Source of the DNA: a virus
Length of the DNA stretch: 33,150 bases
Reading direction: 5' to 3' (one strand)
IMG/VR virus record: IMGVR_UViG_3300043436_001091
Coordinates: 1-33,150 of that record
Shown here: positions 2,097 to 32,266 of the stretch, in pieces
Position numbering within the stretch: position 1 is the first letter of the stretch
Layout: each line of letters begins with the position of its first letter
The notes under the pieces: model-generated
What the model was told of the DNA's origin: nothing
The model's database searches: none
What the model saw: only the letters and a program-made list of their open reading frames with translations
Program-made: the position numbers and the translations under genes

Positions 2097-2677
2097 TCAA
2101 TCACCCCGTCGCTGAGAAAGTCTATGTCGTCGTCCAGATCGGCCTTCGGTCGGCGGACCTGTTTCACTTCTGCGCCGGGGAAGGCCAGCTTGGCCGCGTT
2201 CACCAGCCCGTTGCGATGCTCATGCAGGGCGATGGCCACCTCTCGCATGGTGTGGATGGCGATGCCGGGACGCTTGGCGTAGGCGGCAGGCCATTCACGC
2301 CCATCAGCGATGATGCCGTAGACCGTGCCTTCGTATTCGTGTTCCCAGATGTCAGGATCGGAAACAGGCCGACCGAGGCTGACTGCTTCTGCGTCCATAG
2401 CTGCCAGCCCGCGCAAACACACCTCCACCCAGAACTTCACCTTGTCTGGGTCTTGGCCAGCGATAGCCGCATTCAGGCCAGCCATCGCCTTCGCCCATTT
2501 GTCTGCGCTTTCGACCGACACCAATTCGGGCAGGCGGTCCACGCCCCATTTCTTTTCGGCCTCTCTGCATGCGTGATCGAAGGGTGCCAAAGCCATGTCG
2601 CAGCGAACCTGAATGGCCGTCGTTTGGCCGTGCAGGAGGGTGTCATATTTCTTCTGGTGTGTCGGTCTTTTTGCCAT
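2093..2677 (-). CDS. hypothetical protein (194 aa)
   Basis: A conserved-looking phage protein of unknown function. It is soluble, charged and mainly helical. The N-terminus is basic (MAKRPTHQKKYD), the centre contains WVEVCLRGLAAMDAEAV (about 85-102), and the C-terminus ends in an acidic stretch (KADLDDDIDFLSDGVIE). The start at 2677 is well supported by GGGAG six bases upstream. The stop overlaps the next start by four bases. Upstream lies the repeat-rich spacer 2678-2888, so its promoter may be there. No catalytic motif can be named. Confidence 0.75.
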   Translation of the reverse strand: MAKRPTHQKKYDTLLHGQTTAIQVRCDMALAPFDHACREAEKKWGVDRLPELVSVESADKWAKAMAGLNAAIAGQDPDKVKFWVEVCLRGLAAMDAEAVSLGRPVSDPDIWEHEYEGTVYGIIADGREWPAAYAKRPGIAIHTMREVAIALHEHRNGLVNAAKLAFPGAEVKQVRRPKADLDDDIDFLSDGVIE

Positions 2678-2748
2678 CGTTCACTCCCGTCTTTCAGTTT
2701 CGCGGGTTCGCCCTGATACCGGGTCAACCCAGCGCGTGCGCCTCTGCC

Positions 2749-2880
2749 GCGCCGCTAGGCAGGCGGCAGTGGCGCGCTCTGCGCCGCTGGGTTTACCCTA
2801 TAGGGCGAATTCACCAGCGGCGCAGTCATTTTGCGCCGCTGGCGCGCCAGTAAAACACCATTTTCAAATCCAGCGGCGCA
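2749..2880. repeat. cluster of inverted 11-bp repeats TGCGCCGCTGG
   Basis: Four exact copies of the 11-mer occur in alternating orientation: plus at 2780-2790, minus at 2814-2824, plus at 2832-2842 and minus at 2870-2880. A shorter copy (GCGCCGCT) is at 2749-2756. The first pair encloses a 10-bp palindrome, CCCTATAGGG (2796-2805). The cluster fills the 211-base spacer between the AP2 gene and the next gene, and the last copy ends 9 bases from the AP2 stop codon. It may be a set of operators, a replication origin, or RNA hairpins in the minus-strand transcript; the sequence alone does not decide. Related motifs recur at 3304-3345. Confidence 0.8.
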
Positions 2881-2888
2881 GTGTCGCA

Positions 2889-3260
2889 TTAGTTGCGCTT
2901 TGCCCAATTTTCGGCCTCTGCTTTTGTCCGCGCCATGATGGCCTGATCCATGTTCTCGAAATATCCGAGGTGCTTGGATCGACCAGTCCCGTTGCCAATT
3001 TTTGCCTGCCACTTCCCAGCAGATTTGTTGAATGTCACGCCCTTTGCGCCTGACGTATTGTTGCGCTGGGTTCTTTTGAACCTCTTTGCATCAGCGGTGC
3101 CTCGCACTTCATTCAGCATGATCTTTCCATATGCCAACGAAAGTTCCTTGATCGCCAGAGATAGCGCCGCCGCAATTTCTGCCTCTTCGCATGCGTCAAG
3201 GATCGAAATTTCGACGCTCTTAATCGTTCTGAGCAACTCTGCCTTTTCAGTGTCGCGCAT
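2889..3260 (-). CDS. solitary AP2-domain protein
   Basis: The C-terminal half is an AP2-type DNA-binding domain (SGAKGVTFNKSAGKWQAKI, then GYFENMDQAIMARTKAEAEN), as found in phage HNH homing enzymes. No HNH motif is present. The N-terminal ~60 residues are helical (EKAELLRTIKSVEISILDAC and on). The start is uncertain: tandem ATGs lie at 3275, 3272, 3263 and 3260. GGAG is best spaced (6 bases) for the ATG at 3260, giving 123 aa. The gene is flanked on both sides by GCGCC-rich repeats (2749-2880 and 3304-3345). It may be a DNA-binding regulator or origin-binding protein, or the remnant of a homing endonuclease that has lost its nuclease. The AP2 assignment is firm and the role is open. Confidence 0.75.
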   Translation of the reverse strand: MRDTEKAELLRTIKSVEISILDACEEAEIAAALSLAIKELSLAYGKIMLNEVRGTADAKRFKRTQRNNTSGAKGVTFNKSAGKWQAKIGNGTGRSKHLGYFENMDQAIMARTKAEAENWAKRN

Positions 3261-3303
3261 CATAATCTCCATCATGGTTTTGCGTTATGCGCCCATGATA
3301 CAC

Positions 3304-3345
3304 TTGTGCGCCACTACGTCAACAGCGGCGCACAAATGGCGCACA
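3304..3345. repeat. hairpin and GGCGCACA repeats upstream of the AP2 gene
   Basis: A 12-bp inverted repeat with one mismatch (3304-3315 against 3324-3335, 8-base loop) is followed by a further copy of its GGCGCACA half. The octamer or its complement occurs at 3305-3312, 3327-3334 and 3338-3345, the last two 11 bases apart. The arm at 3323-3332 matches ten of the eleven bases of the downstream repeat family. The element sits exactly between the primase stop codon and the AP2 gene. There is no T-run, so it is not an obvious intrinsic terminator. An operator or binding-site array is a better guess. Confidence 0.7.
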
Positions 3346-5676
3346 TCAAAATTGCTCCCCAACACGGCCAACAGGGCGCACACCTTTGCGATCTTTGCGC
3401 TGACTGTCGGACCGATATTCGAACTCTTCGATCAAGCCCTTTTCGTGCCAAGTCTTGATGATGCGTTTGGCTTGCGCGTCGTTTTTCATGTTGGCCGGAT
3501 CGTCGAATGGGAAGGTCGTGACGACGCGCCCAACGAAGCGATCCTTGTCTTGTGGCCGGATCGAATAATACTCCTGAGACCCGTCATCTGTCCTCGGCCC
3601 CAGTTCGATCATCCGCAGCATCTCGTTCACGACGGCATCGGTCATGCCCTTCCATTCATCTGGCAGGTCGAATGGTACGCAGACACCGATCCACTCGCCG
3701 TTGTCGATCTTGACGCCGATCATCTGGCGATAGGTTGACTTGTCCGCAGGCGGGGCGAGATTGGCCTTGCCATCGTCCACGCGGAAGATGCCTTTGGCTT
3801 TGTCCATGTCCACGCCCAGCTTCATGGCGTCGTCTTCTGAGACCTTGTTGACGACACGGGCAGCCCGCGCCGCCCCGATCAGTGAGCCTGCGCCACGCAC
3901 GCTGTCGATGCTGGCGTCTTCCCCGTTGCCTTTGCGGATGTGATGGACCAGCCCGATGGCAGATTTCGTCTCATCAGCCACTCGCCGTATTTCCGCCACA
4001 ATGGCGTTTACGGCCATATTGTCGTTTTCGTTGATGCTGTGAGCGCCGACGAAGGGATCGATGAAGACGCAGCCGATCTGCTTTTGCGGTATCTGCTTGC
4101 AGAGGTACTCGACCAGTTTGGTGTTGGGCAGGACGCCTTCGCGGGTCTGGATGCCGAATTTTAGGCTGAAGTCTCGGCCCGCGTTGACGAAGAGACGCCC
4201 GCGCACCTCATCCGGCGTGATCTTGTAGTGCTGCATTGCAGCTATGACGCGCCGTTGGATTTCTTCGAGCGGGTCTTCGAGGTTGACGATCCAGACGTTG
4301 GTGCGCTCTTTGACTTCCTCGCCCAGCAGCGGCCTGCCTGTGACGATGGCCAGCGCCTCGACGATCTGTAGGCTGGTCTTCCCGATGCCGCCAGCCGAGG
4401 CCAGCACGCTGACGAAGGACCGCAGGTAGTGGTGGGCATATATCCAGCGGCGAGGCTCAATGCTGGCCCCATCAAACATGTCGTAGACTGTGGGCCAATC
4501 TGGGGCCGCCTCGGGGGCATCTGGGGTGTCAAACGAGCCGAGGTCTATGTCGTCGAAGTCATCGCTGGCAGATGCCTCTGGCGGGCTTTGCGGCGGCTCC
4601 ATGTAGTCGAAGTCGTCCAGCCCGTTCTCGGGCAGTTCGATCTCGGCTTTGGCCGGGCTGATCTCCAAGCCATAGGCGCGCACGGCTTTGTCGAAATCCC
4701 CGTCATGCTCATAGTGGCAGAACAGGTCAAAGGCATCGCCCCAGCAGTATGAGTTCTCTCCGAGTGACTTCGGCTTGCCGACGCCAGCGGCTGCATCCGA
4801 TCCAGACAGGCTTACCCAATGCGATAAGAAGTTCTCCGTGGCAAAGCTGGGAGACGTTTGATACCGAGAACGGTAATGCTGGGATGACCCGCGCCTCTCA
4901 TATTGGTAGCGCATCAACAGGTCTTCGATGGTGTGGTCAGCGTTGAAGGCATCGACCGGGCTGACCTGATCGGGAAACTTCTGCCGACGCTCGGCGCGCT
5001 GGCGCTCACGATCTGCCCGCGCACGCTCGGCCTGCTCGGCGGCCAGACGATGCTGCTCTGCCCGGCGGTCGATCTCCTGCCGGATCGCGCTGGCAGCATC
5101 CAGACGCAGCGTGCCAGCGCGGATCACGCGGTGCTGGTAGAAGATCGGGGTGATGTCAGGGTTGCGTTTGGCCAGCGGCACGTTGGGCAGGTAGATCGGC
5201 TGGCCGCAGCGTGCAAGCGCGCCGTCAGGGTGTATGCCATTGGCATGGAGCAAATCGAACAGGGCTGTCTGGGCAGCTTCATACTCGGCCCCGGTCAGTA
5301 CGCCCGCCAGCGGCAGCAGGACGCGCCACTTGCGGTTCTCTGGGCTTGCGCCGGAGGACGAGTAGGCCAGCAGGCTGACAGGCCCGCAGACGGCCTCTAC
5401 GGCGGCCAGCACGTCGTCTAGGCTGGGGTTGCCCCGGTCGATGTCGAGGGCCAGCATGCGGAACGCCCCATGCTCACGCTGTGCGTCGTGGGATCGGCCA
5501 TCGTGTTCGCGGTAGGTCGAGGGAATGAAGAAGTCGGCGTCGATCTTTTCCTTGGCCTGCGGCGAGGCTGCCATGCGGGCGATCTCGGCCCAAGAGATGC
5601 CGGGATAGGCTTGGCCGGGCTTGCCGATCAGTGTGTAGAAAGAGCCGGGGGCTGTCAGGAAGCGGATGTCAGACAT
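3346..5676 (-). CDS. phage primase-helicase (RepA/AAA_25-type ATPase)
   Basis: This is the main replication protein, 776 aa. Numbering is from an upstream GTG at 5700. The N-terminal part resembles a primase-polymerase: LALDIDRG (about 83-90) supplies the hhhDhD metal motif, followed by YSSSGASPENRKWRVLLPL (113-131). A charged helical linker runs from about 205 to 245. The C-terminal half is a RecA-like ATPase with Walker A ASAGGIGKTS (434-443) and Walker B CVFIDPF (544-550), followed by GLVHHIRKG (583-591), as in RepA/DnaB-like hexameric helicases. It would prime and unwind phage DNA. I prefer ATG 5676 over GTG 5700: neither has a ribosome site, but a short leader ORF with a strong site ends just inside the ATG 5676 start. 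The winged-helix-like C-terminus (ENMLRMIELG region) may bind DNA. Confidence 0.85.
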   Translation of the reverse strand: MSDIRFLTAPGSFYTLIGKPGQAYPGISWAEIARMAASPQAKEKIDADFFIPSTYREHDGRSHDAQREHGAFRMLALDIDRGNPSLDDVLAAVEAVCGPVSLLAYSSSGASPENRKWRVLLPLAGVLTGAEYEAAQTALFDLLHANGIHPDGALARCGQPIYLPNVPLAKRNPDITPIFYQHRVIRAGTLRLDAASAIRQEIDRRAEQHRLAAEQAERARADRERQRAERRQKFPDQVSPVDAFNADHTIEDLLMRYQYERRGSSQHYRSRYQTSPSFATENFLSHWVSLSGSDAAAGVGKPKSLGENSYCWGDAFDLFCHYEHDGDFDKAVRAYGLEISPAKAEIELPENGLDDFDYMEPPQSPPEASASDDFDDIDLGSFDTPDAPEAAPDWPTVYDMFDGASIEPRRWIYAHHYLRSFVSVLASAGGIGKTSLQIVEALAIVTGRPLLGEEVKERTNVWIVNLEDPLEEIQRRVIAAMQHYKITPDEVRGRLFVNAGRDFSLKFGIQTREGVLPNTKLVEYLCKQIPQKQIGCVFIDPFVGAHSINENDNMAVNAIVAEIRRVADETKSAIGLVHHIRKGNGEDASIDSVRGAGSLIGAARAARVVNKVSEDDAMKLGVDMDKAKGIFRVDDGKANLAPPADKSTYRQMIGVKIDNGEWIGVCVPFDLPDEWKGMTDAVVNEMLRMIELGPRTDDGSQEYYSIRPQDKDRFVGRVVTTFPFDDPANMKNDAQAKRIIKTWHEKGLIEEFEYRSDSQRKDRKGVRPVGRVGEQF

Positions 5677-5716
5677 TGTGGCCACCGACGCGCTTGCCAC
5701 CAGATATAGACTGCAT
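5669..5716 (-). CDS. 15-codon leader ORF coupled to the primase gene
   Basis: A short ORF (MQSISGGKRVGGHNV) starts at ATG 5716 with an excellent Shine-Dalgarno, AAGGAA at 5724-5729, seven bases upstream. It stops with TGA at 5669-5671, overlapping the primase start ATG (5674-5676) region. It is in a different frame from the primase. The primase starts have no ribosome site of their own. Ribosomes terminating here could therefore re-initiate on the primase, which is a translational-coupling arrangement. The peptide itself need have no function. The alternative is that a sequencing frameshift has separated the true primase start from its gene. Confidence 0.45.
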   Translation of the reverse strand: MQSISGGKRVGGHNV

Positions 5717-5790
5717 TAAAGTATTCCTTGTGTTGGGTTGCTCTCACACATCTTGGAACCTGCTCCTCCTCGGTTCCGCCTGCCTCAACT

Positions 5791-5829
5791 GAACCCCGGC
5801 GCGTTGGTCTCACGCCGGGGTTCTTTTTT
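5791..5829 (+). terminator. intrinsic terminator, plus-strand orientation
   Basis: A perfect 11-bp GC-rich stem (5791-5801 with 5813-5823), an 11-base loop and then six T residues (5824-5829) form a textbook rho-independent terminator reading rightwards. All genes on both sides run leftwards. It would stop antisense transcription entering the SSB-exonuclease operon. In the minus-strand RNA the hairpin falls 2-8 bases after the SSB stop codon but lacks a following U-run. There it may stabilise the 3' end or terminate only weakly. Confidence 0.8.
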
Positions 5830-5830
5830 G

Positions 5831-6484
5831 TTAGAACGGGATCGAATCGTCTAGCTCATCCGCAATGGATTGCCGCTTGGCGTCATCCAGCGGCTTGCGG
5901 GCCTGCTCAAACGGATCAGACTTGTTCTCGACCGTGTCAAAATCATCCATTCCGCCGTCGCCATAGCTGGCTTCGGTGACCTGCACTGCGTCCAGAAGCA
6001 GGCTGATGCCGCCGACGCCTTCAGGGTCGATCACAGCCACGGCCCATGCGCGCACGGTGCCTTTGGAGCCGCCCCAGAAGTTAAGATCGGCGACGGGCTG
6101 CTTTTGCCCGTCGATCACGGTGGGTGCCTTGTTGAGGGTGCCATCCTTCTTCACGCCGTTCCGCTTGGCGCTGAACTTGATGATGCCCGTCTCGTTTCCG
6201 TGTTCGTCCTTGAGCTTCTTCATGCCGAAGACCTTGGAGAACGGAGGCAGCTTGGTGTTGCGCGTGCGGGAGGCGTCATAGTGGGCGCGCATTTCATCGA
6301 ACAGCGGCTTGGCCTGATCTCTTGGCATCTCGAAGTCCACGCTCCAAGCCGCGTTGGATGCGGTCTGCGCGCAGGGTTCGCTGGCCTGCTTCTGGGTGTT
6401 AAAGCGGTAGGTGCCGCTCAATTTCGGGTATTGCAGCGTGACGTTTTTCGCCAACACTTTCAGGAAGTCGGTATTATCAGCCAT
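5831..6484 (-). CDS. single-stranded DNA-binding protein, Enc34/DUF2815-like
   Basis: The 217-aa protein matches the phage ssDNA-binding (OB-fold) family typified by Enc34 SSB: N-terminal VTLQYPKLSGTYRFNTQ (about 15-31), central KVFGMKKLKDEHGNETGIIKF-type region, and WGGSKGTVRAWAVAVIDPEG (about 137-156). The C-terminal ~45 residues are acidic and disordered, ending in DDSIPF. That ending closely mimics the DDDIPF tip of bacterial SSB, which docks partner enzymes. It would coat phage ssDNA during replication and recombination and may recruit host SSB-interacting proteins. It is the last gene before the hairpin at 5791-5829 and follows the exonuclease gene by 24 bases. Confidence 0.85.
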   Translation of the reverse strand: MADNTDFLKVLAKNVTLQYPKLSGTYRFNTQKQASEPCAQTASNAAWSVDFEMPRDQAKPLFDEMRAHYDASRTRNTKLPPFSKVFGMKKLKDEHGNETGIIKFSAKRNGVKKDGTLNKAPTVIDGQKQPVADLNFWGGSKGTVRAWAVAVIDPEGVGGISLLLDAVQVTEASYGDGGMDDFDTVENKSDPFEQARKPLDDAKRQSIADELDDSIPF

Positions 6485-23227: not shown

Positions 23228-23710
23228 TTTCCTCGCGCTCCTTCATGACGGCAAAGTAGGCCACCCATTCATTATACTCATCAAGCGAGATTTCCTCAAT
23301 CTCCGAGATGGTCTTGCCCAACCTGTCTGCCAGCGCCACCAAGTTGAGCCTGAATGGGTCGCCTCTTAGTTTTTTGTGTGATCCTCAATGCTCGTCGCGT
23401 TGAACACAGCGCCGAACACTTTGGCGATCACGCCGACAGGCTCACTCATCAGGATCGGCTTGTCCTCAAGGGTGAACGCCTTGTCGCCCTTCTGGTCTTC
23501 GCACTTTTCAATGACCATCTCGACCATCGCACCCAAGGAGGTGTTGGTCAGAAAGTCCTTGTACTTGCGCTGGACCTTTTCGATGTCCCGTGCGCTCACC
23601 GACGTGAAGAAGAGGCGAAGAGGAGTTTCCCCCTCGCCCCATTCTTCGACATCGACGAAGCCACGCTGCTGGTCAGCCCGTTTGGCTGCGATGCGTCTTG
23701 CCAAGCTCAT
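23205..23710 (-). CDS. tail assembly chaperone, frameshifted long form (168 aa)
   Basis: The zero-frame product is a 114-aa protein (23366-23710; MSLARRIAAKRADQQRGFVD, then LRLFFTSVSARDIEKVQRKY), the lambda gpG-like tail assembly chaperone. After a -1 shift at A_AAA_AAC (23369-23375) reading continues for 54 more residues (starting LRGDPFRLNLVALADRLGKT, then EYNEWVAYFAVMKERE) to TGA at 23205. The extension has the look of the gpT/GTA-type chaperone tail domain and no start of its own. As in lambda G/GT, the ratio of short to long form would organise tape-measure folding and tube assembly. The extension overlaps the tape measure start. Confidence 0.82.
23366..23710 (-). CDS. tail assembly chaperone, short form (114 aa)
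   Basis: This is the product read without frameshifting. The start overlaps the tail tube stop (TAATG at 23708-23712). The sequence is alpha/beta and acidic: GEGETPLRLFFTSVSARDIE (about 26-45), then VEMVIEKCEDQKGDKAFTLE, ending in NATSIEDHTKN. It would bind the tape measure protein before polymerisation of the tube, in the manner of lambda gpG. Its gene contains the slippery site that makes the long form. Confidence 0.8.
   Translation of the reverse strand: MSLARRIAAKRADQQRGFVDVEEWGEGETPLRLFFTSVSARDIEKVQRKYKDFLTNTSLGAMVEMVIEKCEDQKGDKAFTLEDKPILMSEPVGVIAKVFGAVFNATSIEDHTKN
23369..23375 (-). promoter_or_regulatory. -1 programmed frameshift site A_AAA_AAC
   Basis: The heptamer lies in frame as XXXYYYZ: the last base of ACA, then AAA and AAC, directly followed by the zero-frame stop TAA (23366-23368). 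Slipping back one base places the ribosome in a frame open for 54 codons. The sequence ahead (AAGAGGCGACCC) contains AGAGG, which may act as an internal Shine-Dalgarno-like element, but a stimulatory structure was not established. Position at the end of the tail chaperone gene is where lambda-like phages use such sites. Confidence 0.85.
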
Positions 23711-24105
23711 TATACAGCCGTCAGTTGTGAGAGAGGTCCAGTGCCTTGGCAGGAGATCGAAATCTCGACCAAGCCATCATAAGATGCCGTCAGATTGCGG
23801 CTCGTCACGATGGCACTGCCACTGTAGTAGATGTCACCCGCTGTCGCACCCTCTGGGTACAGGTTCAGCGTGACGGTGGCACCGACAGTCAAGGCACCTT
23901 GTCCAGTGGTGTTTGTCTCATCCCAAAGGCAATCGACAGTCGCAGTGAACGTCTTCAAACCCGCAAGATAGGTTCTTGAAACATCCCCCATGCTGCTGTC
24001 GTCGATGGTGTCGCCAGTTTCTTCGACCGAGTAAGAACGGATTTCAGCGATTGCGTTGGTGGACCCGACTCTAACGGTTCCTTCGCTTCCTGCATGAGTA
24101 GCCAT
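23710..24105 (-). CDS. major tail tube protein, copy A (131 aa)
   Basis: A compact beta-sandwich-type protein: MATHAGSEGTVRVGSTNAIA, then DTIDDSSMGDVSRTYLAGLK and TATVDCLWDETNT, ending with SRNLTASYDGLVEISISCQG. This is typical of siphovirus tail tube subunits, which form stacked hexameric rings. It differs from the copy upstream at about 15 of 131 positions, mainly in the loop EGATAGDIYYSG and at the C-terminus (PLSQLTAV). AAGGAGG five bases before the ATG is identical in both copies. The 3' end overlaps the chaperone start (TAATG). Confidence 0.85.
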   Translation of the reverse strand: MATHAGSEGTVRVGSTNAIAEIRSYSVEETGDTIDDSSMGDVSRTYLAGLKTFTATVDCLWDETNTTGQGALTVGATVTLNLYPEGATAGDIYYSGSAIVTSRNLTASYDGLVEISISCQGTGPLSQLTAV

Positions 24106-24556
24106 AGGAGCCTCCTTGTGTGGCTATTTCTGTATAAACTGATGATGCGGATTATTAAACCGCAGTCTGCGTTAGCGCGCCAGTGCCTTGGCAGGAGATC
24201 GAAATCTCGACCAAGCCATCATAAGATGCGGTCAGATTGCGGCTCGTCACAATGGCGCTGCCAGTGTAGTACACGTCGGTGGCCGTTGTACCCTCTGGAT
24301 ACAGGTTGAGGGTGACCGTAGAACCGACAGTCAAAGCGCCCTGACCATTTGTGTTCAGTTCATCCCAAAGGCAATCGACAGTCGCAGTGAACGTCTTCAA
24401 GCCAGCGATGAAGGTTCTCGAGACATCACCCATGCTGCTGTCGTCGATGGTGTCCCCGGTTTCCTCAACAGAGTACGAACGGATTTCAGCGATTGCGTTG
24501 GCACCGACTCTTACGGTTCCTTCGCTGCCTGCGTGAGTTGCCATAGGAGCCTCCTT
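23739..24556. repeat. tandem direct repeat containing both tail tube genes
   Basis: Two units of roughly 375-380 bases, 23739-24117 and 24181-24556, align along nearly their whole length with an offset of 439-442 bases. The ribosome-binding region is included (CATAGGAGCCTCCTT on the plus strand at 24103-24117 and 24542-24556). The repeat ends with the shared Shine-Dalgarno, while the 63 bases between the units are not shared. This is the footprint of a gene duplication that took the ribosome site with it. Confidence 0.85.
24155..24544 (-). CDS. major tail tube protein, copy B (129 aa)
   Basis: Paralogue of the adjacent gene, about 88 percent identical by eye. It starts MATHAGSEGTVRVGANAIAE and ends TGALTQTAV. 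The deduced loop is EGTTATDVYYTG instead of EGATAGDIYYSG. The DNA also carries many synonymous differences, so the duplication is not very recent and both genes appear to be under selection as proteins. It is transcribed before copy A. Either or both could build the tube; a mixed tube or a specialised end ring is possible. Confidence 0.85.
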   Translation of the reverse strand: MATHAGSEGTVRVGANAIAEIRSYSVEETGDTIDDSSMGDVSRTFIAGLKTFTATVDCLWDELNTNGQGALTVGSTVTLNLYPEGTTATDVYYTGSAIVTSRNLTASYDGLVEISISCQGTGALTQTAV

Positions 24557-25587: not shown

Positions 25588-28083
25588 TTAGACGCCGTCG
25601 TTGTTGTAGGCGAAGGACACAGCATGGCGAACTGCCACATCGACCGTCTGGAGGGCGCGGATGCGAACCGTACCCGAAGACGAAGCGGTGTAGGGGTCAA
25701 CCAAGATGTCCAAGCCGCCGTACATGCCGATCAGCAGGTCCGCGAAGTTGCCGAAGAACAGGTCGCCAGAGGTGACTTGGTTCGACACGATGGCGCGGTA
25801 GCCGTTGATCGTATTGCCGGGCTGCTCGACCACGAAGAGGCCCTGACCAGAGGCCTTGGCAGTGGTCTTCAGCGCGCCGTACATGCTGGCAGGCAGGATG
25901 TAGGCGAGGTTGCCCAGCAGGGCGTTGTCCTCGGCCACAGCGGTTTCCAGAGCCACGACTTCAGCGAAAGTCGGGTTGGCCGCAGCAAACGAGGTCGGCT
26001 TGTTGACACCAGAGACGTTCTTGATGCCAGTGGGCTGGCCCGAAGAGCCAGAGCCAGCCAGACCGCCGAGGTCGATGGCGAGAGCGATAGCACGCGACAG
26101 GTCGTCACGAACCAGAGCTTCGATATCGGGCGAGGACTGCATCATCATCAGGCGCGTGATGTCGGTGAAGGCACCGAGGGTCTTCGGGGTCATAGTGACC
26201 TGACCGAAGGTCGGCTCCGACTCAGAAGCAGCGCCGCCTTCCGTCGAAATCCAGCCAGCGGAAGCGCCAGCAGTCTTCTTCGGGATAGCCACGTTGCCCT
26301 TGAGGCCGTTCAGCATCGTCGCGCCAGCCTGCATCACAGACGAAGCGTTACGCAGAACGTCGATGAAGTCACCGCCACGGAAGTCTTGAGCGATCACGCC
26401 CGAGTCATCAGTGGTGTTCAGGTCACGCTTTGCCCACGACCGCAGAACGTCGGCGGGGATCATCAGGCCTTTGGCATCAGCACCAACAGCACGCTGGGCA
26501 GCAGCCGAGGCTTCGAATTCGAAGCGGGCTTCTTCCTGAGCGCGGAAGTCGGTCGGGTTCGCCATAGCGCGGATCGCAGCCATGAGCGAGAACTTGCGGA
26601 CCTCTTTCTGGGTCAGGCCGATGTTGGCCGTTTCCAGAGGCTTGTTGCCGATTGCTTCAAGCAGTTCGCCACGGAATTCCGCGAGAGAACGACCAGAAGA
26701 AATGGCTTTGTCAGCCAAATCACGCTTGTTGTGCGATGCGCCGAGACGGATCATCTCAGCAGCATCTTTGGCAGCGGCACGGGCAGCTTCGGCCTTGACC
26801 GCGTCCAGATCAAATTCAGCCATTTTGGCCTCCTTGATAGGGGTTGCAGGGATAGAGGTGGTCAGGTCGTCCGCCGCCGATCTGCCAACGCCAACTGTCC
26901 TGTCGGCGGGGATAGAAACGATGGAAACTTCCATAGGCATCCAAGAAGTGGCTCGGTACGTTTCCTTGCCTTCCTTGTCGAGTTTGTTGATCTGATAGCC
27001 GACCGAGATGTTGGCTCGGATGCCATCAGTCACGTCATCGAAAACCTCTTTGGCAAGCCCGTTTCTCCCGAAACGAACAGTCGCACGGAGACGCCGTGCC
27101 GAGCCATCCAAGGCAACCGATTCTACAACGCCGATCTGCTTGGTCGGATCGTGATCCAGCAGAAGAGGCGCTCGGCCAGAATTCAAGAACGACAGATCGA
27201 TGCTGCCGGGCTTGTGGTCGAGGATTTCAATGCCGAAGGACCGCTCAACGGGTTCCTCGGATGAGACGGCGATCTTGACGCGCCGAGCGTCATTGTCGAT
27301 CACCTTGTCTTCAAATGCCATCGCACGGGTTTCGATCCCGTCACGCGAATAACGCTCGGCCTGAAGCTCAAGATCATCCTCTTGCGCCTCGGTCGGTTCG
27401 ATGTGTTCTTCTTCCAGCATCGCTGCGTCCTCCATTTCACGGGCGATCATATCAAACTCACCCCCATCTTGCATAGAGCGCGCATCCTCGGTGGCAGGCT
27501 CAAACTGGATCGGCTCGAAATTATTGCGCTCCAGCCATGCCCGAGCCTCTGCCACAGTGAAGAACTGGGTGCGGAAACGGATCGCCTGAATCTCGCTGGT
27601 GTCGTCCTTGATGCCGAAGATGTAGTCAACGCCCCGGCCACCGCCGTTGTTGCGACGGCGGAAGCTGTCGTATTGGCGAGGATCGCGGATGCGGGCAGCA
27701 TGTTCATTTGCGTAAGGGCGCTCACCAGCGGCGCGGGTGCGGTCATCCTCATCATCCATGTCTTCGTCCTCATCGTCCATGTCGTCAACGATGCCATCGG
27801 CCCATGACTTGCCTGCATCGCCTCCCCAGAGCGCCCACGCGATCCTGCCATTCGACGGATAGCCGTCTTCACCGGGCCGGAAGCCTTGAGCCTCTTTGTC
27901 CACCTCATGGCGGGCGAAGAAGCTCTTCATGCGCTTGACAGTGCTGTCGGAAAGCTCTTTGCCGTTCACGATGTCACGGGCGCGGGCAATGCCGACCTCG
28001 GTGCCACCGCGCCCGAACTCGCGCCGCCAATAAAGGCCGCGCTGGGCTTCTTCCTTCATCTCCTGCGTCGGCTCATAGGACAT
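25588..28083 (-). CDS. prohead protease fused to major capsid protein (831 aa)
   Basis: One uninterrupted frame holds several parts. Residues 1-95 form an N-terminal domain (LYWRREFGRGGTEVGIARAR, then YPSNGRIAWALWGGDAGKSW). An acidic run (98-115, mostly Asp and Glu) and a small domain (YIFGIKDDTSEIQAIRFRTQ, about 154-173) follow. Residues ~255-400 are an HK97-type S78/U35 protease: VERSFGIEILDHK, LLDHD with His311, ANISVGY with Ser360, and PMEVSIVSIPAD with Glu385. From 421, MAEFDLDAVKAEAARAAAKD begins an HK97-fold capsid protein with a helical delta-like N-terminus and conserved GQPTGI and DPYT segments. The protease should cleave the shell during maturation. GGAGG seven bases before ATG 28083 supports the start. 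Confidence 0.88.
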   Translation of the reverse strand: MSYEPTQEMKEEAQRGLYWRREFGRGGTEVGIARARDIVNGKELSDSTVKRMKSFFARHEVDKEAQGFRPGEDGYPSNGRIAWALWGGDAGKSWADGIVDDMDDEDEDMDDEDDRTRAAGERPYANEHAARIRDPRQYDSFRRRNNGGGRGVDYIFGIKDDTSEIQAIRFRTQFFTVAEARAWLERNNFEPIQFEPATEDARSMQDGGEFDMIAREMEDAAMLEEEHIEPTEAQEDDLELQAERYSRDGIETRAMAFEDKVIDNDARRVKIAVSSEEPVERSFGIEILDHKPGSIDLSFLNSGRAPLLLDHDPTKQIGVVESVALDGSARRLRATVRFGRNGLAKEVFDDVTDGIRANISVGYQINKLDKEGKETYRATSWMPMEVSIVSIPADRTVGVGRSAADDLTTSIPATPIKEAKMAEFDLDAVKAEAARAAAKDAAEMIRLGASHNKRDLADKAISSGRSLAEFRGELLEAIGNKPLETANIGLTQKEVRKFSLMAAIRAMANPTDFRAQEEARFEFEASAAAQRAVGADAKGLMIPADVLRSWAKRDLNTTDDSGVIAQDFRGGDFIDVLRNASSVMQAGATMLNGLKGNVAIPKKTAGASAGWISTEGGAASESEPTFGQVTMTPKTLGAFTDITRLMMMQSSPDIEALVRDDLSRAIALAIDLGGLAGSGSSGQPTGIKNVSGVNKPTSFAAANPTFAEVVALETAVAEDNALLGNLAYILPASMYGALKTTAKASGQGLFVVEQPGNTINGYRAIVSNQVTSGDLFFGNFADLLIGMYGGLDILVDPYTASSSGTVRIRALQTVDVAVRHAVSFAYNNDGV
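26821..26835 (-). promoter_or_regulatory. internal ribosome-binding site and start for the capsid domain
   Basis: On the minus strand AAGGAGG (26829-26835) lies five bases before an in-frame ATG (26821-26823), the first codon of the capsid-like part (residue 421 of the fusion, MAEFDL). This is as strong as any ribosome site in the window. It predicts a second, separate product of 411 aa (25588-26823) made from the same frame. It would supply excess capsid over protease, which a plain 1:1 fusion could not. Confidence 0.75.
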
Positions 28084-28085
28084 GC

Positions 28086-29552
28086 TTATTCCTCCACCTG
28101 AGCTTCGACAGGCAGCTTCGAACCGAATGGCTCATAGGCCATCGCAAGGCCGAACTGCTTGGCCATTTCCTTGTCGCGCTCAATCTGCGCGAAGGTCTCT
28201 TCAGCATCACGACCATAGGTGGCAGCGATGTCGGTGTGGCTCAAGATGCCGTTCTGTAGGCCGACGACAGCCGCGTTGATCTCCTTCAGCGGGTCAACCC
28301 ACTGGAAGCCACGCGCACGCCAAGAGATGCCCATTGAGAACTTGTCGAACTTGCCCGGCCCGTTGATCGGGATCAGCGCGAAGTCCATGACGTGGGCCAT
28401 CCAGACGCGGAACAGAGGATCGATGAAGTGTTCGATGAAGAAACGCTGCTGGGTTTTGTAGAAGTCCCGCTCCTCAAGCGCGCCCTGCCGAACCGACGAA
28501 TAGGACGTGCCTTCCAGATCGTTGGCCAGCGCGGTGTAGCTGATGCCCAGACCGCCAGCGATTCCGCGCAGGATCGCCTTCTCAAAGTCGGCAAAGGCCG
28601 ATGTCGGGTGATTGGGGTCAAACGGGGTGAAGTCAACGCCAGCCGGAAGCTGGTGGAACGTGCCGGGTTCAGCGTCGTACATCGGGGTGAAGGTGTCTTC
28701 GAACCCGTCAGCCGTGAAGCCATCGCCAGCCGGGGATGTGAAGAAGCCCATCTTGGACGCGCCGACGCGGGCCGCCGTCAATTCGGCCTCACGGTAGCCG
28801 TGCAGCATCTTCAAGGCTGGCATGGCCGTCACAAGCTCAGGCACGCCACGGGTCTGATCTGCGCGCTCCTGCACATAGATGTGAATGATCTGATCCGCCG
28901 GGATGCGCTGGCGAAACAGACCCGTCGTCGTGGTGGTGTAATCATAATCGCCGGGATTGTTCACCAAGACGTGATAGGCGGAAACACGGCGGGTATCAGC
29001 GTCCAACTCGACGCCCATGCGAACTTGATTTCCATTTCGCAGTGTTTCGTTCATCTGCTCATCGACCCGGTCAGGCTCAATGATCTGAACGCCGATGCCG
29101 TGGCGCAGATAGGGCTTGCGGACGATGTGCAGGAACACCTCGCCGTCACGCTTCACGCCGCGAACCACTGCATTCGACAGGTCGGTCATCGACATCTTGC
29201 CGTCAACAGTAGATCCGCCCAGGCGCGAGAACTCAGCCCAAGCCGCTTCAATAATGTTGTTCCCGGCCATGTCGATAGAGCCATCGACGTTCCGGCCCTT
29301 TAGCTGAAGGCGGAAGCCGTTCTCGCCGACCACGTTGGTCTGAACGAGTTGCAGATAGCGGCGGGCGTATTCGTTGTTGCGCTCCAGATCGCGGGCGCGG
29401 TTGCGTAGATCACGCAGAACCCACCGAATCTCAGAGTCGGCAGACTTGTTGCTGCCCTTGAAGTCCATGTACAGGCGGCCCTTTGAGGCGGCCAGATAAT
29501 CACGCTTCCCGGTCGCCTTTTTCTGGCGCTTGAACATGTCGAAAAGGCCCAT
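28086..29552 (-). CDS. portal protein, lambda type (488 aa)
   Basis: A lambda-family portal: an N-terminal basic start (MGLFDMFKRQKKATGKRDYL), then LRNRARDLERNNEYARRYLQ (about 49-68), VVGENGFRLQ, RDGEVFLHIVRKP and VQIIEPDRVD (about 155-164). The conserved ALKMLHGYREAELTAARVGA (about 253-272) and RGIAGGLGISYTALANDLEG (about 336-355), then YSSVRQGALEERDFYKTQQ, confirm it. It forms the dodecameric channel at the capsid vertex through which the terminase packages DNA. The start overlaps the preceding stop (TGATG) and GAGG is eight bases upstream. Confidence 0.9.
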   Translation of the reverse strand: MGLFDMFKRQKKATGKRDYLAASKGRLYMDFKGSNKSADSEIRWVLRDLRNRARDLERNNEYARRYLQLVQTNVVGENGFRLQLKGRNVDGSIDMAGNNIIEAAWAEFSRLGGSTVDGKMSMTDLSNAVVRGVKRDGEVFLHIVRKPYLRHGIGVQIIEPDRVDEQMNETLRNGNQVRMGVELDADTRRVSAYHVLVNNPGDYDYTTTTTGLFRQRIPADQIIHIYVQERADQTRGVPELVTAMPALKMLHGYREAELTAARVGASKMGFFTSPAGDGFTADGFEDTFTPMYDAEPGTFHQLPAGVDFTPFDPNHPTSAFADFEKAILRGIAGGLGISYTALANDLEGTSYSSVRQGALEERDFYKTQQRFFIEHFIDPLFRVWMAHVMDFALIPINGPGKFDKFSMGISWRARGFQWVDPLKEINAAVVGLQNGILSHTDIAATYGRDAEETFAQIERDKEMAKQFGLAMAYEPFGSKLPVEAQVEE

Positions 29553-30139
29553 CAGCCGAACCTCACTTTAATCGTGCTTCCTGTGGGCTTACCGCGCCGC
29601 GCTCGGTCTTTGACGACCTCCTGCTGGAACTCGGCCTTGTATTGGTCCCGTGCCGTCATCAACTCGCCAAAGCTCATCTTGGTCAGAGAGCGGCCAGCGA
29701 TGGAGTAGCTGCCGACATCACTGTCAGCCTTGCCTTGGAGGATGGATTCGATCTTGCCGATCATGATCTCGGCATGGCTGCGAGGATCGGCACCATTCAC
29801 GTCAAGGTCTTGAATGATGGTAAACTCGCCGCGATCAACCACGATGCGGTTGCTGGTCGCCGTCTGCACCACCTCAAGCTGCCAGTGGTAGTAGCCAGCC
29901 TCATAGCCAGATGTCGTGGAACTTGACGCGGTGAACAGATATGTTCCGCCAGTTTCAGACCCTACCAACAGAATCTCTGTATTCCCGCCGCCCGTGATCC
30001 GAGCGACATACTGCGCGCTGTAGGATGCCAGCGGGTAGTCCTGAACCAGATCAGAACGCTTCCACTGAATGAAATCGCCGACGACGATCTCAAGCGGTTC
30101 GCCCTCTGGCGCATTGGCAGCGTCAAAAAGATTGGCCAT
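29552..30139 (-). CDS. gpW-like head protein with N-terminal beta domain (195 aa)
   Basis: The C-terminal ~80 residues carry the gpW-like signature: SHAEIMIGKIESILQGKADS, then YSIAGRSLTKMSFGELMTAR, then DQYKAEFQQEVVKDRARRGK. Lambda gpW is a head-completion or connector protein of about 68 residues encoded between terminase and portal, as here. The N-terminal ~110 residues are a beta-rich domain (LEIVVGDFIQWKRSDLVQDY, then YYHWQLEVVQTATSNRIVVD) that gpW lacks. It may be an Ig-like decoration or connector extension. It starts in a TAATG overlap with the terminase stop. Confidence 0.75.
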   Translation of the reverse strand: MANLFDAANAPEGEPLEIVVGDFIQWKRSDLVQDYPLASYSAQYVARITGGGNTEILLVGSETGGTYLFTASSSTTSGYEAGYYHWQLEVVQTATSNRIVVDRGEFTIIQDLDVNGADPRSHAEIMIGKIESILQGKADSDVGSYSIAGRSLTKMSFGELMTARDQYKAEFQQEVVKDRARRGKPTGSTIKVRFG

Positions 30140-31920
30140 TACCTGTATCCGTGGACAAAACCGCTCCGCATAGGCACCTTCGGCTTGCGGGAGACCGAAG
30201 GCTGCTCGGGAGATGATACCCGATTTTGGGCCTGAGTGTAAACAGCCTCAAGGTTTAGGTTGAGAATAGCCAAAGCAGCCGTCGCATAGACCCGGCAGTC
30301 GAGGGCTTCGTTGCGCGTCCTGATCTTTGCCCACTCCATCCTCGGCCTGCCCTTGAAGTAGCGCGTGACCTTCTTTTCAGCCGTCAGCATGCGGAAATAC
30401 TCATCGCTGCGGCCAACCGGGAAGTGGCAGTAGCCCTCGCCCTCTTCCCTGATCTTCAGCCGTGCGTAGACGATCTCCTTGGCCGTGTCGGTGCCGACCG
30501 GGAATAGGTTGATTTTGCCGATGTTGTTCTTCGTCGGCCTGCCTACAATCGGCTTGCCCTCGCCGCCGACGCCCTTGATGGCGAACACACGTCGGCCAGC
30601 CCGCAGGCGCGCATAGTTGTAGACCTGCTGGGTGTAGTGGCCGCCAGAGTCCACGCAGACAGATCGAATGACCATGTCACCCAAGGTCGGGTGGTCAAAC
30701 TTCCGCCCCAATGTCACGTCGAGGCGGTTCCACAATTCAGCCGACGATGGGTCGCCGTACATCGTCTCATATGCCAGCGACCATGTTTCCTCGCCCCGGC
30801 CCCAGCCGACGATCTCGATTTCCAAGCGGTCGTCCTGCACGTCAACGCCAGCGGTGATGAGCAGCACATCCTCGGGCAACTCATCTCCCCAGTTCTCGGC
30901 GCGCTCCATCAGGTCCATCTCATCGACCTGTTCGCCCTGCTCTTCCCATGTCTCGCCCAAGAACGTGTTGATCCACGTCTTCAGGCGCATGGGGTCACGC
31001 TTCGATTTCAGGAACTCATCCACTGCATCTGGGATCGATACCCAAGGCGAATAAAGTGATGATATGTGAAATCCAGCAATGCCATAAAATGGTGCTGCCG
31101 CCACCCACCTGCCATTCGAGACAGCCTTGTGCCGCTGAACATCAGACCATGCTGCGCCGCACTCCTCGCAATAATATGCCGCAGTTGATGCCTTTTTCTC
31201 CGTCCACTGCACCTGCGCCCAGCGAAGCGTTTGCATGTGGTCACAGTGCGGGCAAGGCACATAATATTGCCGCTGGTCGCTTTCCTGATATGCAGACTCA
31301 ATCCTGCTTGCGCCTTTGTCGGTAGGGGTGCTGACAAGAACTATCTTCCTGTTCCAGAAAGTCATCGCACGCTTGGTTGCCAGCGCCACAGGGTCGCCTT
31401 CCTCGCCCGCAGAAACTGGATATCTGTCCACCTCGTCGCAAAGCACAATCCTGATCGGCCTTGAGGCAAGCCCCGCAGGACTGTTCGCGCCGACCATGCT
31501 CAAAGCGCCACCGGGGAAGGTCTTGTGCAGCGTTGTGTTGCCACTGTCTCGGGCGCGAGGATCTTTAACCTTACCCCTCAGAGATGGCGTTGTAGACAAC
31601 AAGCCAGACGTGATCCTGTCCTTCGAAAAGGATTGCGCCATCTCAACTGTCGGCTGCATAAGAAGAATAGGGCTTGGGTCATGCTCAATGTGATAGCCGA
31701 TGATATTCAGAAGCGCCTCAGATTTGCCCAACTGCGCGCCCGACATAATGACGACCTGCTTGATGTTTGGGTCAGAACAGGCGTCCATCATCCCGCGCTG
31801 ATACTCAGCCCGAGATGTATTCCATCGACCAGCCTCTGCGCTACTCTGAGAACTTAGCCGTCTTTTTTGGTCTGCCCACTGGCTTACGGTTAGCTTTGGC
31901 GGTGGCTTCAGGATCTCCAT
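30139..31920 (-). CDS. large terminase subunit (lambda GpA-like)
   Basis: This ATPase-nuclease cuts concatemers and pumps DNA. Numbering is from an in-frame ATG at 31995. The Walker A-type SGAQLGKSE is at 85-93 and Walker B IVLCDEVD at 183-190. A zinc ribbon of CPHC (248-251) and CEEC (276-279) is present, as in GpA. The nuclease begins near LLITAGVDVQDDRLEIEIVG (about 381-400). ATG 31920 lies at residue 26 and is chosen because 31995 would overlap the small terminase gene by 155 bases; even so the overlap is 80 bases. The start remains uncertain, because lambda GpA also has about 22 residues before the equivalent point. Confidence 0.9.
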   Translation of the reverse strand: MEILKPPPKLTVSQWADQKRRLSSQSSAEAGRWNTSRAEYQRGMMDACSDPNIKQVVIMSGAQLGKSEALLNIIGYHIEHDPSPILLMQPTVEMAQSFSKDRITSGLLSTTPSLRGKVKDPRARDSGNTTLHKTFPGGALSMVGANSPAGLASRPIRIVLCDEVDRYPVSAGEEGDPVALATKRAMTFWNRKIVLVSTPTDKGASRIESAYQESDQRQYYVPCPHCDHMQTLRWAQVQWTEKKASTAAYYCEECGAAWSDVQRHKAVSNGRWVAAAPFYGIAGFHISSLYSPWVSIPDAVDEFLKSKRDPMRLKTWINTFLGETWEEQGEQVDEMDLMERAENWGDELPEDVLLITAGVDVQDDRLEIEIVGWGRGEETWSLAYETMYGDPSSAELWNRLDVTLGRKFDHPTLGDMVIRSVCVDSGGHYTQQVYNYARLRAGRRVFAIKGVGGEGKPIVGRPTKNNIGKINLFPVGTDTAKEIVYARLKIREEGEGYCHFPVGRSDEYFRMLTAEKKVTRYFKGRPRMEWAKIRTRNEALDCRVYATAALAILNLNLEAVYTQAQNRVSSPEQPSVSRKPKVPMRSGFVHGYR

Positions 31921-32266
31921 CGCCCCCTTCAGGCTCAGAGAAAGCAACCCCAGTGCCTGAGGGGTTTGAAAGTGGGTCATAGTTTGAGAGTTCATCTAAG
32001 CATTCCCTGATCTGCTTCTCCAGCTTGTCTTGGATGCTCAAAGCATCATCATCAGCCGCAAAGATTGGCCCCATTTTGGTTGGGATCGACAAAAGCTTGG
32101 CCTTGAGTGCTGAAAGCACATCTTCCCATGCCGAAACTACCGCAGACACAATCGCCAACTCGCCCCTGATCTTGGCAAGTTCCAACTCAGCAATCGCTGC
32201 TTCGGCTGCGACCTTTCTGGTGCGCGCCTCATCATACGTCATGTATTCAGGCTGTGTCTCAGTCAT
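31841..32266 (-). CDS. small terminase subunit (Nu1-like)
   Basis: A 141-aa helical protein: MTYDEARTRKVAAEAAIAEL (about 9-28), then AKIRGELAIVSAVVSAWEDV, then LKAKLLSIPTKMGPIF. This is the pattern of Nu1-type phage DNA packaging proteins. The C-terminus is acidic and then basic (RKPVGRPKKTAKFSE). It recognises the packaging site and hands DNA to the large subunit. The start at ATG 32266 overlaps the HNH stop by four bases (ATGA); a reading to 32341 would run through the HNH gene. An N-terminal HTH is not evident, unlike in lambda Nu1. Confidence 0.82.
   Translation of the reverse strand: MTETQPEYMTYDEARTRKVAAEAAIAELELAKIRGELAIVSAVVSAWEDVLSALKAKLLSIPTKMGPIFAADDDALSIQDKLEKQIRECLDELSNYDPLSNPSGTGVAFSEPEGGDGDPEATAKANRKPVGRPKKTAKFSE

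Follow-up and report, generated by a model that had tools for sequence, protein, structure and literature searches.

In phage lambda, the protease gene C contains an in-frame internal start from which the C-terminal assembly protein Nu3 is made (the I/Z pair of Mu is similar), and the part shared by the two products targets the protease. The tripartite gene of Gifsy-2, attributed to Effantin and colleagues in 2010 (Virology 402:355), is reportedly one ORF for a protease, a scaffold-like middle part and an HK97-fold capsid. Capsid-protease fusions have been described in Microbacterium EE and EL phages and other small-genome actinophages (PMC7302621) and in the R. capsulatus RcC phages (PMC8601537), and fusion of protease and capsid is itself already known. 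No report of a conserved internal start in fused protease-capsid genes was found among open-licence full texts, and within those papers such a start appears to be undescribed.

The gene studied here lies in virus record IMGVR_UViG_3300043436_001091, in a window (the whole stretch of DNA analysed) of 33,150 bases. Its features are as follows.

25588-28083, minus strand: protease-scaffold-capsid fusion gene, a single ORF of 831 aa (predicted 90 kDa)
28084-28104, minus strand: ribosome-binding site of the full-length start, AGGTGGAGGAATAAGC, Shine-Dalgarno (SD) energy -9.3 kcal/mol, adjoining the portal stop codon
27745-28083, minus strand: N-terminal all-helical domain, residues about 1-113 (AlphaFold pLDDT 86; phrog_2859)
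26896-27213, minus strand: Peptidase_S78 prohead protease domain, residues 291-396, with H311, S360 and E385
26829-26835, minus strand: internal Shine-Dalgarno AAGGAGG, by sequence reading and SD energy
26821-26823, minus strand: internal in-frame start codon ATG (M421), at the protease end
25591-26823, minus strand: predicted second product, a scaffold-capsid protein of 411 aa, 43 kDa (fold model ma54a16716658)
26407-26823, minus strand: helical scaffold (delta-like) domain, residues 421 to about 559, predicted to be cleaved off
25591-26406, minus strand: HK97-fold major capsid domain, residues about 560-831, by Pfam, R4C mapping and fold match

A preliminary description of this DNA had placed a protease (His311, Ser360, Glu385) and an HK97-type capsid in one ORF, which the ORF translation, Pfam and the residue positions confirm. 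The 831 aa are not interrupted by any stop, and Peptidase_S78 (PF04586, residues 291-396, E 2e-6) and Phage_capsid (PF05065, residues 564-825, E 7e-43) are in the same frame. The three protease residues are invariant in a 24-member alignment of proteobacterial, cyanobacterial and marine phages, and PHROG 617 ("major head protein") matches residues 251-827 of the fusion (E 1e-158). The surrounding genes form an ordinary head module: on one side lie the portal gene (28086-29552), whose end at 28086 is beside the full-length start M1, a head-tail joining protein (29552-30139) and the large terminase (30139-31995), and downstream of the fusion gene are the head closure, tail terminator and tail tube genes. 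The tail tube genes at 23710-24105 and 24155-24544 (minus) are adjacent and 90% identical, a tandem duplication.

By tblastn, the same architecture was found in Roseobacter phage CRP-811 (75% identity across aligned segments) and in S-CBS1/3, VP882, phiHAP-1, PPpW-3, R4C, RcCronus and others; the PPpW-3 homologue is annotated "putative major capsid protein and peptidase U35". The S78 fusions of PHROG 617 (VP882, phiHAP-1, PPpW-3, R4C, S-CBS1, Arya and the FoX phages) are homologous over residues 251-827 with the same architecture and are annotated as one product in the records consulted, many of them without the N-terminal helical domain of the window gene. The small actinophage fusions (Microbacterium EE, Arthrobacter AN, Gordonia CW/DM, RRH1; PMC7302621) have the same protease-scaffold-capsid order in one gene and were absent among the tblastn matches listed for the window protein. 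Like the window gene, that of Gifsy-2 is one ORF with a junction ATG (M221) behind an SD, but its protease is ClpP-like (S14), whereas the window protease belongs to S78 and not to ClpP. The window gene shares with lambda C/Nu3 an in-frame internal start with a ribosome-binding site; in lambda, however, the two products have only scaffold in common and the capsid protein is encoded by a gene of its own, whereas the internal product predicted here includes the HK97-fold capsid. Like HK97 gp5 with its delta domain, this product is modelled as a helical scaffold, then a cleavable linker, then the HK97 fold, although HK97 encodes the gp4 protease and the gp5 capsid protein in separate genes and the window gene has them fused.

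The element at the border between protease and scaffold had been read, in the preliminary description, as AAGGAGG five bases ahead of the in-frame ATG of the capsid part (26821-26835). This holds on the minus strand, where the spacer CCAAA (26828-26824) separates the SD from the ATG of M421. With -11.4 kcal/mol, M421 has the strongest SD among all in-frame ATGs of the ORF, compared with -9.3 at the true start M1 and -4.5 kcal/mol at the best ATG downstream of M421. Because 26% of synonymous versions (same peptide, the gene's own codon usage) reach the M421 energy, window-only statistics are not decisive; it is the comparative data, and not the window alone, that make the case for a predicted internal start decisive. 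Against use of M421 as a start, a hairpin (-10.3 kcal/mol, z -1.7) is predicted to include its ATG. A start-codon hairpin (GCCA-AAA-UGGC) was also considered as a family feature and rejected, being present at 6 of 86 junctions and at 48 of 1,091 other ATGs.

With 24 seeds, 80 loci were collected from viruses and 80 from bacterial genomes, which together with earlier loci gave 209 complete fused ORFs; dereplication to less than 70% identity left 86 fused genes for the junction statistics, in which identity thresholds are a crude and the sole correction for shared ancestry. The junction was taken as the region between the protease end (VGxGR motif) and the scaffold, and its ATG was picked blind to the SD. 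An in-frame ATG was present at this position in all 86 genes, inside an otherwise fast-drifting linker, and in 200 of 200 undereplicated fused ORFs with the VGxGR motif. The mean SD energy was -5.8 kcal/mol at the junction ATG compared with -2.1 at 1,086 other internal ATGs (p 5e-29), -5 was reached by 73% of the former and 11% of the latter, and no internal ATG scored better than the junction ATG in 50 genes, with 6.9 expected. As a control, internal ATGs of the upstream portal-like ORFs average -2.3 kcal/mol. The junction SD was also stronger than in synonymous-codon shuffles (-5.8 versus -3.8 kcal/mol, p 1e-10), and the signal persisted in the 34 genes below 50% identity (p 4e-12). To remove ascertainment bias from a peptide pattern that spanned the junction, the loci fetched by that query were taken out, which left the result unchanged (84 genes, p 8e-28). 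Folding of the mRNA was weaker at the junction ATG than at other ATGs (-3.7 versus -8.6 kcal/mol, p 5e-15) and slightly weaker than in synonymous shuffles (p 0.003).

The SD is written in different ways at different junctions: as AAG GAG GCC AAA where the peptide is KEAKM, as AAG GAG GTC ATT where it is KKEVIM (AAGGAGGTCATT), and as CAA AGG AGT GAT CCC where it is TQRSDPM (CAAAGGAGTGATCCC). Its retention despite altered peptide and codon phase points to selection on the RNA, not on the linker peptide. Under the blind choice of ATG, 13 of the 86 genes have a weak SD. The cyanophage members S-CBS1/3 and S-LBS1 have kept the junction ATG without an SD, and therefore may use a different mode of initiation or have lost the function.

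Fused and split homologues, the two forms that the preliminary description had named for a database search, were both found: 209 fused ORFs on the one hand and two split relatives on the other, whose capsid gene begins at the junction position as an ATGA overlap. In one of them (L055), the protease ends in KMEVRA and a stop codon, and at the same stretch, ATGGAGGTAAGAGCATGA, a second ORF for scaffold and capsid (MKKKWIKRQQE...) begins in a different frame, with SD and ATG opening this capsid gene across the protease stop (GGAGGTAAGAGCATGA). The same arrangement occurs in an actinophage relative (L378, AAAGGAAACCCTATGA), where ACAAAGGAAACCCTATGA closes the protease and its ATG opens the capsid ORF. 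Where the frame is broken, the junction position therefore serves as a genuine start of the capsid gene. A Haematospirillum prophage-like locus (L214) carries, immediately behind the fused gene, a second, free-standing capsid copy (4783-5870) whose ATG is preceded by an SD of its own, GGAGG.

From these sequence comparisons, we consider it very probable that two proteins in the same frame and with a common C-terminus are made from the gene, an 831-aa fusion and a 411-aa scaffold-capsid protein, which co-assemble and are matured by the protease. Two products from one gene had been predicted in the preliminary description, and the prediction is strongly supported by the comparison and by the capsid start of the split relatives. 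At the sequence level, the support consists of the architecture, the SD and ATG, their conservation, the open junction mRNA across families and the starts of the split relatives; start use, product ratio, co-assembly and cleavage sites are what we infer. Initiation at M1, by the portal stop codon, would yield the protease-scaffold-capsid fusion (90 kDa), and independent initiation at M421 would yield the scaffold-capsid protein (43 kDa) as the main building block. Because the scaffold and capsid parts are shared, both would co-assemble into one procapsid, into which the fusion would bring the protease in limited number. After completion of the shell, the protease would remove itself and the scaffold by a cut at about residue 559/560, leaving a mature capsid protein of 272 aa.

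In likening the gene to lambda C/Nu3, the preliminary description had put capsid in place of scaffold. This is wrong, as residues 421 to about 559 are predicted to form a helical scaffold ahead of the HK97 fold. The model of the 411-aa product (residues 421-831, pLDDT 85) has helices at product residues 6-128, disorder at 134-150 and then the HK97 fold, so that a helical domain of about 100 or more residues is modelled ahead of the capsid fold, as in HK97 gp5. A structure search returned the R4C capsid (8gta, E 3e-24), RcGTA, D3 and HK97 as nearest. Of the 629 residues encoded in R4C, the deposited chain comprises the last 268, which may also reflect what was modelled, and its start maps to about residue 560 here, within the disordered stretch. 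Because helices precede the HK97 fold and the R4C chain maps from about residue 560, we read the internal product as a self-contained, HK97 gp5-like scaffold-capsid protein whose scaffold is predicted. The text of the R4C paper names neither a protease nor a cleavage, and no N-terminal data for VP882 or phiHAP-1 were found in the open-licence literature.

In the two-product model, translation would set the protease ratio, and the fusion would carry the protease into the shell. HK97 Prohead I contains 415 capsid proteins and only about 60 protease copies, and D3 about 90 proteases per 540 capsid subunits (PMC12749128). The HK97 ratio of about 60:415 was counted in favour of two products, because a single-product fusion could not yield it. 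A second start would answer the puzzle of how a protease can be welded to every capsid subunit without the shell being filled with protease. If this is true, the product named in hundreds of "capsid-protease fusion protein" annotations is the minor one and their capsid N-termini are misassigned, and one codon would be enough to make protease stoichiometry testable.

Other fusion families show a comparable junction. In Gifsy-2, the ATG of M221 is preceded by GAGGAG (TTGAGGAGTTTGAGCATATG) at the ClpP/scaffold border, and all 11 representatives of the Gifsy-2-like ClpP fusions have a junction ATG, with a mean SD of -5.5 compared with -1.9 at other ATGs (p 2e-5) and modestly above synonymous shuffles (p 0.012). 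Among RRH1-like actinophage fusions, 53 of 59 have the junction ATG, with an SD in most; the mean is -5.7 versus -2.5 (p 5e-15) and, in this group, not above the synonymous null (p 0.46). The mRNA at the junction start is open in both groups. Because the protease family differs (ClpP) and sequence similarity is low or partial, the S78, Gifsy-2-like and actinophage fusions were judged to be of probably separate origins. We think it likely, though less so than for the window gene itself, that protease-capsid fusion, apparently arisen separately in S78 marine/proteobacterial, ClpP Gifsy-2-like and actinophage lineages, is nearly always accompanied by a built-in second start where the scaffold begins. 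Genes of this kind would then encode two products, the protease dose per shell would be fixed at translation, and a frame change at the ATGA overlap would convert them into the two-gene HK97 layout or back.

The N-terminal helical domain, with the motif GRIAWALWGGDAG, is conserved in marine relatives and absent from the R4C, VP882 and Gifsy-2 records; the structure search gave no PDB fold match for it, and it has no Pfam family. Some relatives have an insert of about 77 residues after it. In Roseobacter phage CRP-823 (L058), two overlapping "major capsid" CDS (1486-2202 and 2162-4414) are separated by a break between this domain and the protease, either a genuine split or a frameshift introduced by sequencing.

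A further start before the protease, at M212 or M222, would add to the two-product model a third nested product, a protease-scaffold-capsid protein lacking the N-terminal domain. Both ATGs have a strong SD (-9.7 and -9.3 kcal/mol) upstream of the protease core (27418-27474, minus, residues 204-222), relatives without the N-terminal domain begin their gene near there, and an ATG with an SD of -7 or lower upstream of the core occurs in 26 of 49 relatives that have the domain, a raw count without a matched null (for example L139, AAAGGAGGAATCTATG). Position and sequence are not conserved, however, and several relatives have weak sites only; a third product is suggested but unlikely.

We regard as highly improbable a gene that makes the full-length fusion only, with the capsid freed solely by self-cutting of the protease and the SD and ATG left as relics of a separate capsid gene. 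HK97-type proteases do process themselves, fusion presumably joined genes that once lay next to each other, and this survey includes split forms in which SD and ATG are the same. But a relic would decay, whereas the SD and ATG persist below 50% identity in an otherwise saturated linker, where different codons have come to spell the SD. Moreover, a fusion-only shell (about 420 x 47 kDa extra) would by arithmetic have about 24,000 nm3 to house in a procapsid interior of roughly 20,600-44,600 nm3, a radius of 17-22 nm being assumed.

Slightly less probable still is that the SD-like stretch starts nothing and either arises from a linker rich in Lys, Glu and Gly or makes ribosomes pause for protease folding: junction peptides are K/E-rich, the synonymous null already averages -3.8 and in actinophages equals the observed SD, but the excess over that null in S78 and, modestly, in the ClpP family speaks against a by-product, a pause needs neither an ATG at start-codon spacing nor open mRNA, and in split relatives the capsid gene has to start from this element.

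The six actinophage fusions without a junction ATG are L239 (Gordonia phage SallySpecial), L398, L384, L390, L368 and L372. They are natural test cases of whether the second start can be lost, and two of them, L384 and L390, have a GTG behind a good SD.
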